From the NCBI RefSeq assembly GCF_037076425.1, contig NZ_AP028127.1, positions 2,422,501 through 2,431,147 on the forward strand: a DNA stretch of 8,647 nucleotides, read 5' to 3'. Shown here piece after piece: positions 1,527 through 8,435 of the stretch. Made by a program: the position numbers and the translations under genes. The notes under the pieces were generated by a model. That model was not told the DNA's origin and made no database searches. It was given only the letters and a program-made list of their open reading frames with translations. How positions within the stretch are numbered: position 1 is the stretch's first letter; every line of letters begins with the position of its first letter. This DNA comes from Turicibacter faecis. Lineage in GTDB: Bacteria; Bacillota_I; Bacilli_A; MOL361; Turicibacteraceae.

Positions 1527-1926
1527 AGGCTTTGTTAGATTTTGAACCATGAGAATACGAGATTTAATTACCCTAGCAATGGAGGTAATGTACGAGCTTT
1601 GCTACGTCCGCCAGGTGACCCAGTGATGAAATCACGATATTCAAAGGCAATACGCTTAATGACCTTAATTTTATTATTAACTCCTTCGCTAGGACCGTAT
1701 GTGTAAGGGGTTGAGAGAGTATCTTTGATATAAGATTGATAAGTTTTAAAGTTTTAGAAAGCTATTTGAAGTTCAGGAGAAATAAGTGAATGTTGCGTTT
1801 CAAGCAAATGATTAAATCGTTCTAAGTTTTTCGTCTGAAGAGCAAAAAGTAACTCTTGATATAGATTTTAACTCAGGAGATAAATCAATTAACTTCACTT
1901 CCTCAAGATATTTTTATCTTTAATAT
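1503..1926 (-). pseudogene. ISL3-family transposase, 3' remnant (broken)
   Basis: Read on the - strand in joined frames, this gives the C-terminal part of an ISL3-family DDE transposase: SPELKSI, then LQTKNLERFNHLLETQHS, then PYTYGPSEGVNNKIKVIKR and finally KSRILMVQNL before a TAG stop at 1503-1505. The E of GPSEG corresponds to the last catalytic acidic residue of the family. Damage visible: a frame change near 1873 (consistent with two lost bases), an in-frame TAA near 1765, and a roughly 50-bp foreign insertion (1569-1621) between the YRDF and KSRIL segments. The N-terminal two thirds are missing, and I cannot recognise them in the DNA beyond 1926. The protein differs clearly from the intact 543-aa ISL3 transposase further on, so this is a different element. 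It is inactive; family assignment is firm, exact ends are not. Confidence 0.85.
1569..1621 (-). repeat. Short structured insertion, copy 1 (inside ISL3 remnant)
   Basis: On the - strand, this stretch of about 50 bp reads GGTCACCTGGCG (1620-1609), an inner hairpin (ACG-T-AGC, AAA loop, GCT-CGT, 1607-1592), a 14-base pyrimidine-rich linker, and TGCTAGGG (1578-1571). CCTGGC and GCTAGG can pair as an outer stem with one G-T wobble. It interrupts the transposase reading frame at a point where the family normally has only about three residues, so it is an insertion and not part of the gene. It shares motifs and architecture with the stretch at 8026-8123. Function unknown. Confidence 0.6.
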
Positions 1927-3746: not shown

Positions 3747-5378
3747 CTAGGAATAGAGCACTTTAATACGTAGAAGTTCAAAACTTGCTCGTCCATACAT
3801 TTGGCGTTTAATCATTTTAATTCGGTTGACATTCCCTTCACAAATCGCATTAGTGTATGGATAAACTAATGCGTTACTGATCGATTGCTCATCACGTTTC
3901 ATTCGAAGACAAAACTCACGCAGTAATTTAATCTCATGAGTAGCGTAACGTTCTAGCCATTGAGATAATTTGAATACTTGCCCCATCGTGACCAAATCTC
4001 TAAATACTTGGATGGCTGTATATAGTTCACTTAAGTCTGCATGAGCTTGAAAGAGTTCATTTAATAAATTTAATTCTGGTTGAGTTAAAGACGTTGGTTT
4101 TCGCCAAATGAATGAGGTGAGTTGAAACTTCGTTGCTTTCAATAATTTACTAGATTTTTTTGATATTTTTTCTGTTGCCTTCTCACTTGTTTTTACGGGG
4201 AGATTTGCTTTAATTTCTTGAACTTTTCGACGAGTTGAAGAAGCTCCTCCTTTAAACCCTTGGTGGATGAGTTGTTCATGAATCCAACGAGCAGTTTTTC
4301 CCTCCTGACACCATTGTGTGATTTGATTTAAATAGGGGACAAATTGATTAACACGGGGCTTTCGTATTTGCTTGGGAGGTTCAGATAACTGAATATACTT
4401 CGCTACGGTTGTCCGACTTAACTTAAGTTGTCTGGCTGTTTGACGAATAGAGCCTACTTGTTGGTAGACCTTTTGAATCTCCAAAATGAGTGCCCATTTT
4501 GCTTGTTCCTTTTCAGATAATGATTCATGACTGGATATTGAGTTCACGTTAGTAATCGTTATATCTGTCGCTGGATCTGTTTTTTTAGTGATTGAAGATT
4601 CAGGCATGATAAACCATCCTTTAGGAAAACGAGAACTAATGGTTTCTTTAACAACCGTTAATAGGTTTTTAAGAAAGTGCCACTTGTCGGCAACCTGAAT
4701 AATGTTAGGATTCGTTAAATGAATGGCTTTAGTATAAGTTGTTGCACGATCACGTGTCACTAATTCAACTGAGGGATGTTTTTCCAACCATTCTTTAAAC
4801 GCTTGAGTCGAACGAGAGGCGAGAATTTCAACCGGACGATGCGTTTCTAAATCACAAATAACCGTTCCAAAGTCGACCCCTCGACGAAAAGAAAAGTCAT
4901 CAACCCCAATATGGGTTAATGACTGATTTTTTATATCTTTTTCAGTAGAATCGATACGTCGTAATAAATCTAATAGTGCATCTCCACTTCGTTTATATCC
5001 AAGTTTAAAAAGAAAGCGTGATAAAGCTTCCGCACTCATCGATAATGATAATTGAAGAAAAACCTCTTCAAGACGAATGGTTAAACGCCGATAGGCATTT
5101 AAAAAGCCAGTAAATCTTTCAGTAAAAATTTGACGTTTACAGTTAGGATTTAAACAAAAAAACTTTTTAGCTTGTATCCTTAATTGAACAGGTTTATTAA
5201 GGATAGACGCATCTAATGGTTTTCTAAGATACGTACTGTGTACCTGGTGACTTTTCATCCCACATAAGGGACAGTGGTTAAATTTTGATTCAGATTTTAA
5301 ACAAATCAAGATTATATGCTCATTATTTTCAATGGATTGAATCATAAGATTTTCAGGGAAAAAGACATTAAGATTCAT
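3747..5378 (-). CDS. ISL3-family transposase (543 aa)
   Basis: This DDE transposase catalyses cut-and-paste movement of its element. In order: an N-terminal zinc-binding domain with CPLC (C36, C39) and CLNPNC (C75, C80); the catalytic core beginning around THIGVDDFSFRRG (D160/D161), VTRDRATTY (D210) and ADKWHFLKNL (around 231); an inserted helix-turn-helix region at about 301-335 (SIRQTARQLKLSRTTVAKYI) and a second helical segment at 343-392; then the C-terminal YPYTNAICEGNVNRIKMIKR with the catalytic Glu at 514. Length fits the longer ISL3 subgroup. The ATG is preceded by AGAGAGG nine bases upstream, and a promoter lies 30-60 bp upstream. The gene is uninterrupted and keeps the expected acidic residues, so it is probably active. 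It is the only gene of its element and faces the rRNA operon. Confidence 0.95.
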   Translation of the reverse strand: MNLNVFFPENLMIQSIENNEHIILICLKSESKFNHCPLCGMKSHQVHSTYLRKPLDASILNKPVQLRIQAKKFFCLNPNCKRQIFTERFTGFLNAYRRLTIRLEEVFLQLSLSMSAEALSRFLFKLGYKRSGDALLDLLRRIDSTEKDIKNQSLTHIGVDDFSFRRGVDFGTVICDLETHRPVEILASRSTQAFKEWLEKHPSVELVTRDRATTYTKAIHLTNPNIIQVADKWHFLKNLLTVVKETISSRFPKGWFIMPESSITKKTDPATDITITNVNSISSHESLSEKEQAKWALILEIQKVYQQVGSIRQTARQLKLSRTTVAKYIQLSEPPKQIRKPRVNQFVPYLNQITQWCQEGKTARWIHEQLIHQGFKGGASSTRRKVQEIKANLPVKTSEKATEKISKKSSKLLKATKFQLTSFIWRKPTSLTQPELNLLNELFQAHADLSELYTAIQVFRDLVTMGQVFKLSQWLERYATHEIKLLREFCLRMKRDEQSISNALVYPYTNAICEGNVNRIKMIKRQMYGRASFELLRIKVLYS

Positions 5379-5837: not shown

Positions 5838-6743
5838 TTAAGCAATTTGTCGTGCAAGTTGCTCACATTCTTCTGGCGTTAAATAATTAATGGAACCATG
5901 AATCCTTTTGCGATTATACCAGCCTTCAATATATTGAAATAGGGCCATTCTAGCCTGTTCAAATGTCACATATGTAGTTTGATACACTTCTTCTTTCTTT
6001 AGAGTGGCATGGAAAGATTCGATACAAGCATTATCATAAGGACATCCTTTACGACTGAAAGACTGGATCATCTTAAAGTCTGAAGTTAAGTCTTTAAACT
6101 CTTGGCTAGTATACTGTGATCCTAAATCAGTGTGGAGAATAATCTCATCTTTAGGTTTTTGAGAAACATAGGCATTCTTTAAAGCTTTTACGATAATATC
6201 TGTGGTCATTTGTTTTGAAAAATGATAACCAATAATTTTCTTTGAATGTAAATCCATCACTGAAGCTAAGTAGCACCAACCTTCTTTTTGAACGTAAATA
6301 TAAGTAATATCGGATACCCATTTTTGATTAATTGAAGTCGTCGAAAAATCCTGTTCTAGAATGTTATTACGTTCTAAAACAAGTTCCTTAGACTGTCTAT
6401 AAGGAGTATATTTTCTTTGAATAATCGAAGCTAAACCGCTTGATTTCATTAACCGTTGAACACGTTTCAAGCTAACAGTGAATCCCTCTTTAATCAATTG
6501 ATGGTGTACCTTAATAGCACCATACCGACACTTACTTTCAAAATAAATTTCTTTAATACGTTCAAGTAGTTTCTGATTTTCACGTTCCCATTTTGATTCA
6601 GTTTGATGCTTCGATTGATAATAAGTACTTCTTGGAACACTTAAGACCTCACAAAGTTGCTTAATATCGTGTTCCTGATGGTGTTGATTAATAAACTGAC
6701 ATAATTCAGATTGACTTACTTTCTCGCGAATATGGTCATAGCC
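5838..6743 (-). CDS. IS3-family transposase OrfB (catalytic part, made by -1 frameshift from orfA)
   Basis: This is the integrase-like half of the IS3 transposase, expressed as an OrfAB fusion. From the slip point at 6743 it is 301 residues, giving a fusion of about 379 aa, normal for the family. An HTH_21-type region (around 51-105, with RYGAIKVHHQLIKEGF) precedes the rve/DDE core: D145 (WVSDITY), D206 (LHTDLGSQY) and E242 (ACIESFHATLK), with the D and E 35 residues apart, the DD(35)E signature. The C-terminus YNRKRIHGSINYLTP is typical. The frame opens at a TGA just upstream of the slippery site and has no ATG there; a start at an internal TTG (6497) would remove part of the HTH and is unlikely. 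No defects are seen, so it is probably functional. Confidence 0.93.
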   Translation of the reverse strand, partial: GYDHIREKVSQSELCQFINQHHQEHDIKQLCEVLSVPRSTYYQSKHQTESKWERENQKLLERIKEIYFESKCRYGAIKVHHQLIKEGFTVSLKRVQRLMKSSGLASIIQRKYTPYRQSKELVLERNNILEQDFSTTSINQKWVSDITYIYVQKEGWCYLASVMDLHSKKIIGYHFSKQMTTDIIVKALKNAYVSQKPKDEIILHTDLGSQYTSQEFKDLTSDFKMIQSFSRKGCPYDNACIESFHATLKKEEVYQTTYVTFEQARMALFQYIEGWYNRKRIHGSINYLTPEECEQLARQIA

Positions 6744-6976
6744 TTTTTTAATATTTCATTCTCCTCTTGCAGACGTAACATTTCTTGCTTCATGCGTTTA
6801 ATATCCTCTAGGGTAATTTCTGTATCATCTACCGAGGCAATCGGAGAAATTTGTTTAATCCATTTGTAAATTGTTACTTCTGAAACACCATATTCACGAC
6901 TTAGATCTTTAACTGAACGTCCATTTTTATAAAGTTCAACAATCATTGATTTAAATTCATTATTATATTTTTTCAT
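6716..6976 (-). CDS. IS3-family transposase OrfA (86 aa, helix-turn-helix and leucine zipper)
   Basis: OrfA binds the terminal repeats and regulates transposition; it is also the N-terminal part of the OrfAB fusion. Residues 1-45 form the HTH_Tnp_1 type domain (FKSMIVELYKNGRSVKDLS, then YGVSEVTIYKWIKQ). Residues about 56-78 (EDIKRMKQEMLRLQEENEIL) form a heptad leucine zipper used for dimerisation. The ATG at 6976 has AAAGGA ten or so bases upstream and a promoter about 26 bp further out. The zero-frame product ends IFARK at a TAA at 6716-6718. The AAAAAAG slip site lies eight codons before this stop. OrfA and OrfB overlap, as is usual in the family. Confidence 0.93.
   Translation of the reverse strand: MKKYNNEFKSMIVELYKNGRSVKDLSREYGVSEVTIYKWIKQISPIASVDDTEITLEDIKRMKQEMLRLQEENEILKKAMTIFARK
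6743..6765 (-). promoter_or_regulatory. Programmed -1 frameshift signal (A6G heptamer plus upstream SD-like AGGAG)
   Basis: On the - strand the heptamer A-AAA-AAG (6749-6743) sits in the orfA frame and lets ribosomes slip back one base into orfB. An AGGAG (6765-6761) lies 11 bases upstream, a placement known to stimulate -1 slippage by pairing with 16S rRNA, as in dnaX and other IS3 elements. No strong downstream hairpin was seen by eye. Confidence 0.85.
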
Positions 6977-7030: not shown

Positions 7031-7231
7031 TAAAACTATACTAGCACCAAAAGTTAAAAAAATCCTAATAATATAAAAACCTTTTTAAAAGAAATATCAT
7101 AGAAGATAGAAGACATATACCTAATTGTTACAAATAGAGGGGAAATATAGCCTATTTTGATATTCTTAAATTTTTATCTGATTAAAAGGCTGGGTCTAGG
7201 TCAATATTTTGGACACCAAAAAGTTAATTTT

Positions 7232-8360
7232 TTAAGCTACTTGTCGTGCAAGTTGCTCACATTCTTCAGGTGTTAAATAATTAATAGAACCCTGAATTCT
7301 TTGTGGCATGAAATGATTCAATACAAGCATTATCGTAAGGACATTCCTTACGGCTAAAAGATTGAATGAGATTAAGTTCTGAGGTTAGGTTTTGAAAATC
7401 TTGGCTAGTATACTGCGTCCCTAAATCGGCATGAAGTATAACTTTTTCTTTTGGATTTTGCGAAGCACAGGCATTTTTTTAAGCTTGGATAATAACGTCC
7501 GTTGTCATTTGCTTAGAAAAATGATAACCAATAATTTTCTTTGAATGTAAATCGGTGACTGAAGCCAAGTAGTACCAACCTTCTTTTTGAACGTGAATAT
7601 AAGTGATATCCGATACACGTTTTTGATTAATTGAAGTCTTCGAAAAGTCCTGTTCTAGAATATTATGATGCTCTAAAACAAGTTTTTTAGGTTTTTTATA
7701 AGGGTATATTTCTTTTGAATAATCGAGATTAATCCAACCGATTTCATTAATCGCTGAACGCGTTTTAAGCTAATGGAGTGTCCCTCTTTAATCAATTGAC
7801 GGTGTATCTTAATCGCTCCATATCGACGACGAAATTCAAAATAAATCTGCTTGATTTGTTAAAGTAGGTTTTGATTTTCACGCTTCCGATTCGATTTGAT
7901 GTTTCGATTGATAATAAGTGCTTCTTGGAAAACTTTAAGACCCCACAAATTTGCTAAATATCATGTTCCCCTTGATGTTGATCAATAAATTGACATAATT
8001 CAGATCGAGTTACTTTCTCGTGAATGGGGCCCCCACACGATTTATCTACTCCTTTGGTGGGGAATGGTCATCTGGCGATTGCCGACGGCAATCTATTCTT
8101 CAACTGCTAGGGAAACTGTTAATAGCCTTTTTTAAAATTTCATTTTCCTCTTGTAAGCGTAAAATTTCTTGCTTCATACGTTTAAATTTCTCGAGAGTCA
8201 TTTCAGTATCATCCACTGAAGCGATGGGAGACATTGTTTAATCCATTTGTAAATTGTTACTTCTGAAACGCCTTATTCACGACTAAGGTTTTTGACGGTA
8301 CGACCAGTTTTATAAAGTTCAACAATCATTGATTTAAATTCAGAATTATATTTTTTTCAT
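7232..8360 (-). pseudogene. IS3-family transposase orfA/orfB, broken
   Basis: Compared with the intact IS3 copy in this window: the ATG at 8358-8360 is followed by an A-run one base longer, so the orfA frame stops after about four codons; a foreign sequence of about 90 bp splits the orfA/orfB junction at 8026-8123; an in-frame TAA-type lesion appears near 7860; an extra T lies near 7487; and about 95 bp are missing near 7303, removing the C-terminal part after the catalytic Glu region. Recognisable pieces remain, such as ILHADLGTQYTSQ with the second catalytic Asp. The final stop corresponds to that of intact orfB (TTA at 7232-7234). It cannot make a transposase, although its ends might still be acted on by the intact element's enzyme. 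Confidence 0.88.
8026..8123 (+). repeat. Short structured insertion, copy 2 (inside decayed IS3)
   Basis: This segment is absent from the intact IS3 copy and contains no IS3 coding sequence apart from a short GAATGGTCAT stretch. Its first arm has GGGGCCCC (8026-8033) and a CCCCAC (8031-8036) / GTGGGG (8057-8062) pairing. The second arm reads GGTCATCTGGCG (8066-8077), a perfect 7-bp hairpin GATTGCC/GGCAATC with GAC loop (8077-8093), a 12-base pyrimidine-rich linker and TGCTAGGG (8105-8112). TCTGGC and GCTAGG can form an outer stem. The second arm matches copy 1 (1569-1621) in motifs and layout. It is far richer in GC than its host, and its function is unknown. Confidence 0.65.
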
Positions 8361-8435
8361 AAAGTCGCATTCTTTTATTAAATCTAATGTAACGACTTAA
8401 TAAAAGGATGTGTCCATAAAACTATACTAGCACCA

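Follow-up and report, generated by a model that had tools for sequence, protein, structure and literature searches.

A genus-specific family of small hairpin repeats lying inside transposase genes and other sequences of Turicibacter

Two kinds of palindromic repeat are the closest described counterparts of the element reported here. Rickettsia palindromic elements (RPEs) are mobile palindromic repeats found inside protein genes, where their in-frame insertion is tolerated (PMC10969869), and REP/REPIN elements, associated with RAYT (TnpA-REP), are small strand-specific hairpins that have short loops and occur in high copy number, some of them being suspected from their GT pairs to be transcribed (PMC3733652, PMC8266576). 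The 8,647-nucleotide stretch analysed here (the window) is the last 8.6 kb of the Turicibacter faecis genome (G000; one contig of 2.43 Mb, NZ_AP028127.1, positions 2,422,501 to 2,431,147). A sequence-only reading of the window had reported a structured insertion of one type in two unrelated transposase relics, of the ISL3 and IS3 types. Both inserts are present where they were noted, match a family model (Table 1), and belong to a solidly established, large, genus-specific and previously unrecognised family of tiny hairpin repeats.

The hairpin family and its shared fold

The source-genome search proposed in the sequence-only reading, run as CTGGCG-N25-35-TGCTAGGG, returned 12 places, as against none in a reversed control; a third inner hairpin occurs in 10 of the 12, and a looser right-end pattern gave 20 places, again with none in the control. 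In five genomes of one genus, a covariance model built from 14 copies (R1) finds 45 copies in G000, 55 in G001, 15 in G002 (a draft), 32 in G003 (complete) and at least 148 in G004. Of 296 genomes of the class scanned, these five have matches that pass E 1e-4. One further match passed the threshold, in G104 (L217), and was rejected as a family member as it is by eye groEL-like coding sequence (ITNDGVTIAKEI); no credible match occurs in the 291 class genomes outside the genus. R1 found zero copies in G005 and G007, from another genus of the same taxonomic family, and four weak matches in G006 (best E about 0.02).

The earlier reading knew of no named repeat family with this pattern, and no curated covariance model of Rfam matches the element at gathering or at permissive thresholds. 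Exact-pattern scans of genome-contig and viral-contig collections were empty, and BLAST of one array against plasmids and phages returned nothing, both being weak tests in that near relatives may not be included; no description of such repeats was found in the literature searched.

The unit is about 45–70 nt long. Its 5′ part comprises GGGTCA, the first arm of a 6-bp outer stem (CCTRSC/GSTAGG), and an inner hairpin stacked directly on the outer stem; its 3′ part comprises a 12-nt bulge, the outer 3′ arm, and an AGGG end with about three variable nucleotides. One plan of this kind is shared by 109 distinct copies in a structural parse, with outer arms CCTNNN and NNNAGG. Most copies open with GGGTCA, GGGTTC or GGGTCC, and the bases before this 5′ end vary. 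There are 61 distinct inner hairpins among the 109 copies, 11, 15, 17, 20–21 or 27–32 nt long with few others, varying in sequence and length with the pairing kept; in an ungapped parse the inner loop is 3 nt in 76 of the 109. The 3′ bulge is exactly 12 nt, with a consensus of about NTATCCTCMAYT. Position 12 is able either to pair with the outer arm or to lengthen the inner stem, the latter being favoured by RNAalifold, and the unpaired stretch is 12 nt under either pairing. The nucleotides that follow AGGG are AAT (44), CTT (44) or TAT (14), with others including AAC, TAA and AAA. An intrinsic terminator was considered and rejected, as AGGG plus AAT, CTT or TAT provides no T run.

Outer-stem covariation had been claimed from the two window copies, which alone are thin evidence; the 109 distinct copies bear the claim out, and over the family the stems covary strongly, above shuffles. 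In a gap-free set of 31 sequences, 93.5% of cells are paired (83.1% in shuffles), 34 cells are double-changed (9.5 in shuffles) and the covariation score is 0.32 (0.13 in shuffles, with none of 500 as high), figures which are not probabilities because the sequences are related; the signal was lost once the partners were slid. A set of 23 sequences gave 20 double-changed cells as against 6.6 (0 of 500 shuffles), cells and score agreeing with the larger set; measures counting the pairs or types with a double change were not above shuffles in this smaller set.

The wobble pairs are informative on the strand involved, since A.C takes the place of G.T when the opposite strand is read. At outer pair 4, 52 copies have A-T, 51 G.T, 5 G-C and 1 A.C, and the inner stems contain eight G.T and two A.C pairs. 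This asymmetry shows that selection acts on one folded strand, the plus strand of the element as read here, whether as RNA or single-stranded DNA (ssDNA). Taken with the covariation over the family, it supports the conserved structured RNA or ssDNA that had been proposed.

Insertion sites and host genes

The hosts of the insertions are ISL3, IS3 and IS66 transposases, Rpn nuclease genes, a prophage single-strand DNA-binding protein (SSB) gene and an intergenic repeat of about 140 nt. The ISL3 C-terminal site has the sequence ...TACCATTTTAAATCAAG... in homologues that lack the insert and TACCATT[GGGTCACC...AGGGTAA]TTAAATCAAG in those that carry it; CATT/TTAAATC (a slash marking the insertion point, single brackets the insert) has become CATT[GGGTCACC..AGGGTAA]TTAAATC, a net gain of 45 nt in the form with the 11-nt hairpin, and no duplication. 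At a second ISL3 site (site A) in G000, GCCGAG/GGAGC has become GCCGAG[GGTCACC..AGGGAAC]GGAGC; this genome has six intact full-length copies and several filled ones. Rpn site 1 has passed from GACGTGGGACC to GACGT[GGGTCCCC..AGGGAAT]GGACC, with Rpn site 2 close by, and different Rpn paralogues carry different elements at the shared sites. The Rpn-type PD-(D/E)XK nuclease genes with two fixed element sites in their N-terminal part were observed at L014, L015, L099 and L155. In the 140-nt repeat both empty and filled versions exist (GTCCAG/CTAAAAG and GTCCAG[GGG..AGGG]CTTAAAAG), and at the IS3 OrfA/OrfB junction the empty site, GGCTATGACCATATTCGCGAG, is present in the window's own intact IS3 (5838-6976). 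Joined-frame analysis revealed further insertions in IS66 genes, at DRGNEF in IS3, and in one IS3 orfA.

The 5′ insertion boundary is nearly constant, beginning GG(G), and the 3′ boundary is ragged. A consistent target duplication was not found, the repeated stretch being 0–4 nt according to where the ends are drawn. Adjacent copies stand head to tail in 67 of 67 pairs, including arrays of unlike members, and the sense-strand bias of the insertions was not significant. Compared as sequences, the empty and interrupted sites show mobility over evolutionary time; with copies at many unrelated sites, they uphold the earlier suggestion of an element that moves. The inserts are not a normal part of ISL3 and IS3 relatives, as had been considered, since empty sites were found in both.

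The 140-nt intergenic repeat (TCTATATAGAAACAGAAATGTATTTCATC..GACTATAGTCCAGCTAAAAGTTTTCCGATATGAAAAACTTATCTGGACTTATATA) occurs in G001, G003 and G004 (for example L110, L191, L196 and L216), its 3′ end having 54 near matches in G004, 32 in G001 and 22 in G003; it can form hairpins of its own and in many cases carries a hairpin element, at a single set position. Elements also occupy a fixed place in another palindromic context that recurs, GTGGATATTATGGTGGAGAT[elements]GGCGTTCCGGTTAGTATCCAC (L115 2160-2260; L127 5140-5660 and 6300-6390).

Some insertions leave the host gene open. Three ISL3 copies of G001 are open and in frame through the C-terminal insert (FYHWVTYHAEHVSSTSRVIKSRIL), and similar in-frame ISL3 inserts are present in G003 and G004; the recurrence of the open interrupted form indicates that the interrupted transposase has multiplied. 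In a prophage-like SSB gene (L116; PF00436), with a phage holin gene next after it, GSPALSSGAISNPQLAGN is contributed by the insert, after which the frame runs on to the DDLPF tip. The in-frame insertion is also seen in a similar open reading frame (ORF) of L149; a related ORF in G004 holds a different element at the same place. The element is read in different frames in SSB and ISL3. The remaining insertions bring stops or frame shifts, their net length often not being a multiple of three; those in IS3 orfA, at IS3 DRGNEF, in IS66, at ISL3 site A and at Rpn site 1 are all out of frame. Where ISL3 carries the insert at site A, a second ORF of 264 residues takes its start codon from within the hairpin element (L013 4568-5904, MRSMYPPLVGNGAMSF), so that the split transposase might still be produced, as two parts.

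Movement of the elements

We consider it likely that these are genus-specific, REP/RPE-like mobile palindromic repeats, which a putative enzyme acting in trans would move in the form of a folded single strand. That strand would be the top one, either ssDNA or RNA, and its outer stem and bulge would be what the putative enzyme recognises. Members insert at many unrelated sites with no consistent target duplication. The head-to-tail habit of the arrays suggests that a new insertion may be made beside an existing copy. Members also travel as passengers whenever a carrier insertion sequence (IS) or the 140-nt repeat moves. The elements look selfish, gathering in dispensable DNA and sometimes being retained in genes as an in-frame peptide.

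Several observations weigh against this proposal. Imprecision of the 3′ boundary (AAT, CTT, TAT, AAC, TAA or AAA) blurs the definition of the unit; single-copy ssDNA folds of both window copies are unremarkable (z −0.4 and −1.4); identical tandem copies could result from slippage rather than insertion; and, as one insertion followed by spread of the IS lies behind many copies, independent insertions are far fewer than copies. Finally, a mobilising enzyme was not found. G003, a complete genome with 32 copies, has no Y1_Tnp (PF01797), and neither G000 nor G001, with 45 and 55 copies, has RVT_1; each is therefore missing from at least one many-copy host, and neither an IS200/RAYT-type Y1 transposase nor a reverse transcriptase is a general mobiliser now, although past loss from these hosts is possible. 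G000 has seven PF01797 matches, all alike and IS200-looking. The Rpn nucleases were rejected as an obligate partner, the query having no match in G003.

It is unlikely, though the least so of the alternatives, that the hairpins are passengers only, having arisen a few times in IS elements or the 140-nt repeat and spread by carrier movement or recombination with no mobility of their own. Such an origin accords with the seven filled ISL3 copies of G000, which share one site and are near-identical in sequence, with the same IS3 junction being filled in three genomes, and with the many copies that occupy an identical position in the 140-nt repeat; against it stand clearly unrelated sites (two in ISL3, several in IS3 and IS66, two in Rpn, SSB, and intergenic DNA), arrays in which unlike elements adjoin, and paralogous Rpn genes that hold different elements at one site.

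Somewhat less probable is a function at the RNA level, the copies being transcribed structured RNAs (processing or protein-binding sites, or an array like that of a type III antitoxin) kept for function and duplicated by recombination. The strand-specific G.T wobbles fit RNA, as do structured repeats in tandem arrays and a conserved unpaired motif of 12 nt; yet the copies within transposases point either way with respect to the gene, copies lie in decaying relics, no neighbour gene recurs among the loci examined, and no Rfam family was matched. We give slightly less credence again to RNA-mediated copying, in which the folded RNA would be reverse transcribed and then inserted, the 5′ end being fairly constant and the 3′ end ragged. 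The GG(G) start of the insertions and the three variable nucleotides after AGGG are what this would produce, and a group II intron reverse transcriptase gene lies near one copy in G004 (L119), whereas G000 and G001 maintain their copies with no RVT_1 gene. That the insert is skipped or removed during expression, by ribosome bypass or RNA excision and at almost no cost inside transposase genes, is very improbable: the interrupted ISL3 is present as seven near-identical copies, and at the out-of-frame sites the codons just before the insert and at its end could use the same or a similar tRNA, but insertion beside G residues trivially yields the same codon pattern.

The family of mobile repeats proposed here is well suited to the open question of how very small palindromes move where no cognate transposase is at hand. 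It offers a clean natural sample from five related genomes, with numerous subtypes whose stems covary, a bulge of fixed length, empty sites that are precisely defined, and in-frame inserts in real genes. The question becomes testable, since mutations can be made in the outer stem and in the bulge, and presence and absence narrow the set of candidate enzymes. For annotation the family is also a warning, in that a split transposase or an unusual protein insert in this genus may stem from a hairpin element.

Window copies and described systems

Copy 1 interrupts a decayed ISL3-type transposase close to its C-terminus, between YRDF and KSRIL; the protein match to this relic (G000:C1:2424125-2424373, window 1625-1873) contains two stops. 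Copy 2 lies in an IS3 relic, 12 nt past the A6G frameshift site where OrfA and OrfB meet, on the strand opposite to that on which the relic gene reads. The same junction is also occupied in two sister species (L018, L024), so copy 2 was probably inherited together with its IS3. Directly before copy 2, and head to tail with it, is a probable third, decayed element which resembles the GGGCCCACAGC...GCTGGGG subtype of L021 and L120. Near the hairpin array of L120 are two adjacent c-di-GMP-II riboswitch matches (8067-8275, minus strand; 69.2 bits, and a second at 43 bits, below the gathering score). Elsewhere the window contains the end of an rRNA operon (1-1366: the 23S 3′ part, 5S rRNA at 1177-1285 and a tRNA gene at 1296-1366) and, beside the relics, an intact ISL3-type transposase of 543 residues (3747-5378) and the apparently intact IS3 (OrfA, A6G slip site, OrfB).

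Table 1. Coordinates of the hairpin elements, their parts and their carriers in the window
Feature	Position	Strand	Basis
Copy 1 of hairpin element	1568..1621	-	R1 match 1566-1621, 41.8 bits, E 4.7e-11; empty/filled comparison
Copy 1 outer stem 5′ arm CCTGGC	1610..1615	-	structural parse
Copy 1 inner hairpin GGACGTAGCAAAGCTCGTAC	1590..1609	-	structural parse; fold
Copy 1 12-nt 3′ bulge ATTACCTCCATT	1578..1589	-	structural parse
Copy 1 outer stem 3′ arm GCTAGG	1572..1577	-	structural parse
Decayed ISL3-type transposase around copy 1	1530..1900 (approximate limits)	-	protein match
Copy 2 of hairpin element	8066..8115	+	R1 match 8065-8117, 46.2 bits, E 2.3e-12; empty site in window's intact IS3
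Copy 2 outer stem 5′ arm TCTGGC	8071..8076	+	structural parse
Copy 2 inner hairpin GATTGCCGACGGCAATC (7 bp, GAC triloop)	8077..8093	+	structural parse; folds
Copy 2 12-nt 3′ bulge TATTCTTCAACT	8094..8105	+	structural parse
Copy 2 outer stem 3′ arm GCTAGG	8106..8111	+	structural parse
Decayed IS3-family element carrying copy 2	7200..8412 (approximate limits)	-	sequence similarity to intact IS3 at 5838-6976
Probable third, decayed element (GGGCCCCCAC...GTGGGGAAT)	8027..8065	+	by eye; not called by R1

Amongst more distant systems, the mobile bypassing elements of yeast mitochondria are short hairpin inserts inside coding sequence, whereas the inserts described here lie mostly in dispensable genes and nothing indicates bypassing. 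Integron attC core sites (RYYYAAC / GTTRRRY) were not seen at the element ends; integrase genes were not searched for. Miniature inverted-repeat transposable elements (MITEs), including those derived from IS200/IS605, are likewise small non-autonomous repeats inserting at many sites, but terminal inverted repeats of a resident IS were not recognised here, and consistent target duplication is lacking.

The nearest systems were compared using published definitions of REP and RPE (PMC3733652, PMC8266576, PMC10969869). The element resembles RPEs in its in-frame insertion with the downstream frame kept, in SSB and at the ISL3 C-terminus. RPEs, however, are about 100–150 bp long with a conserved encoded peptide and a terminal CGTC tag, whereas the present element measures 45–70 nt, is read in different frames, ends in GGGTCA and AGGG plus variable nucleotides, and, unlike RPEs, is in many cases inserted out of frame. 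With REP/REPIN it shares a short palindrome, high copy number, a strand-specific hairpin and a short loop. REP/REPIN sequences have GTAG or a similar tetranucleotide directly 5′ of the palindrome, a tag that this element lacks, and a cognate Y1 (RAYT) transposase in the genome, which G003 does not have; the element further differs in being often intragenic, in its strictly head-to-tail arrays and in its conserved, one-sided 12-nt bulge. As it has neither the tag and RAYT of REPs nor the length, peptide and tag of RPEs, we place it as a mobile palindromic repeat that is a member of neither family.
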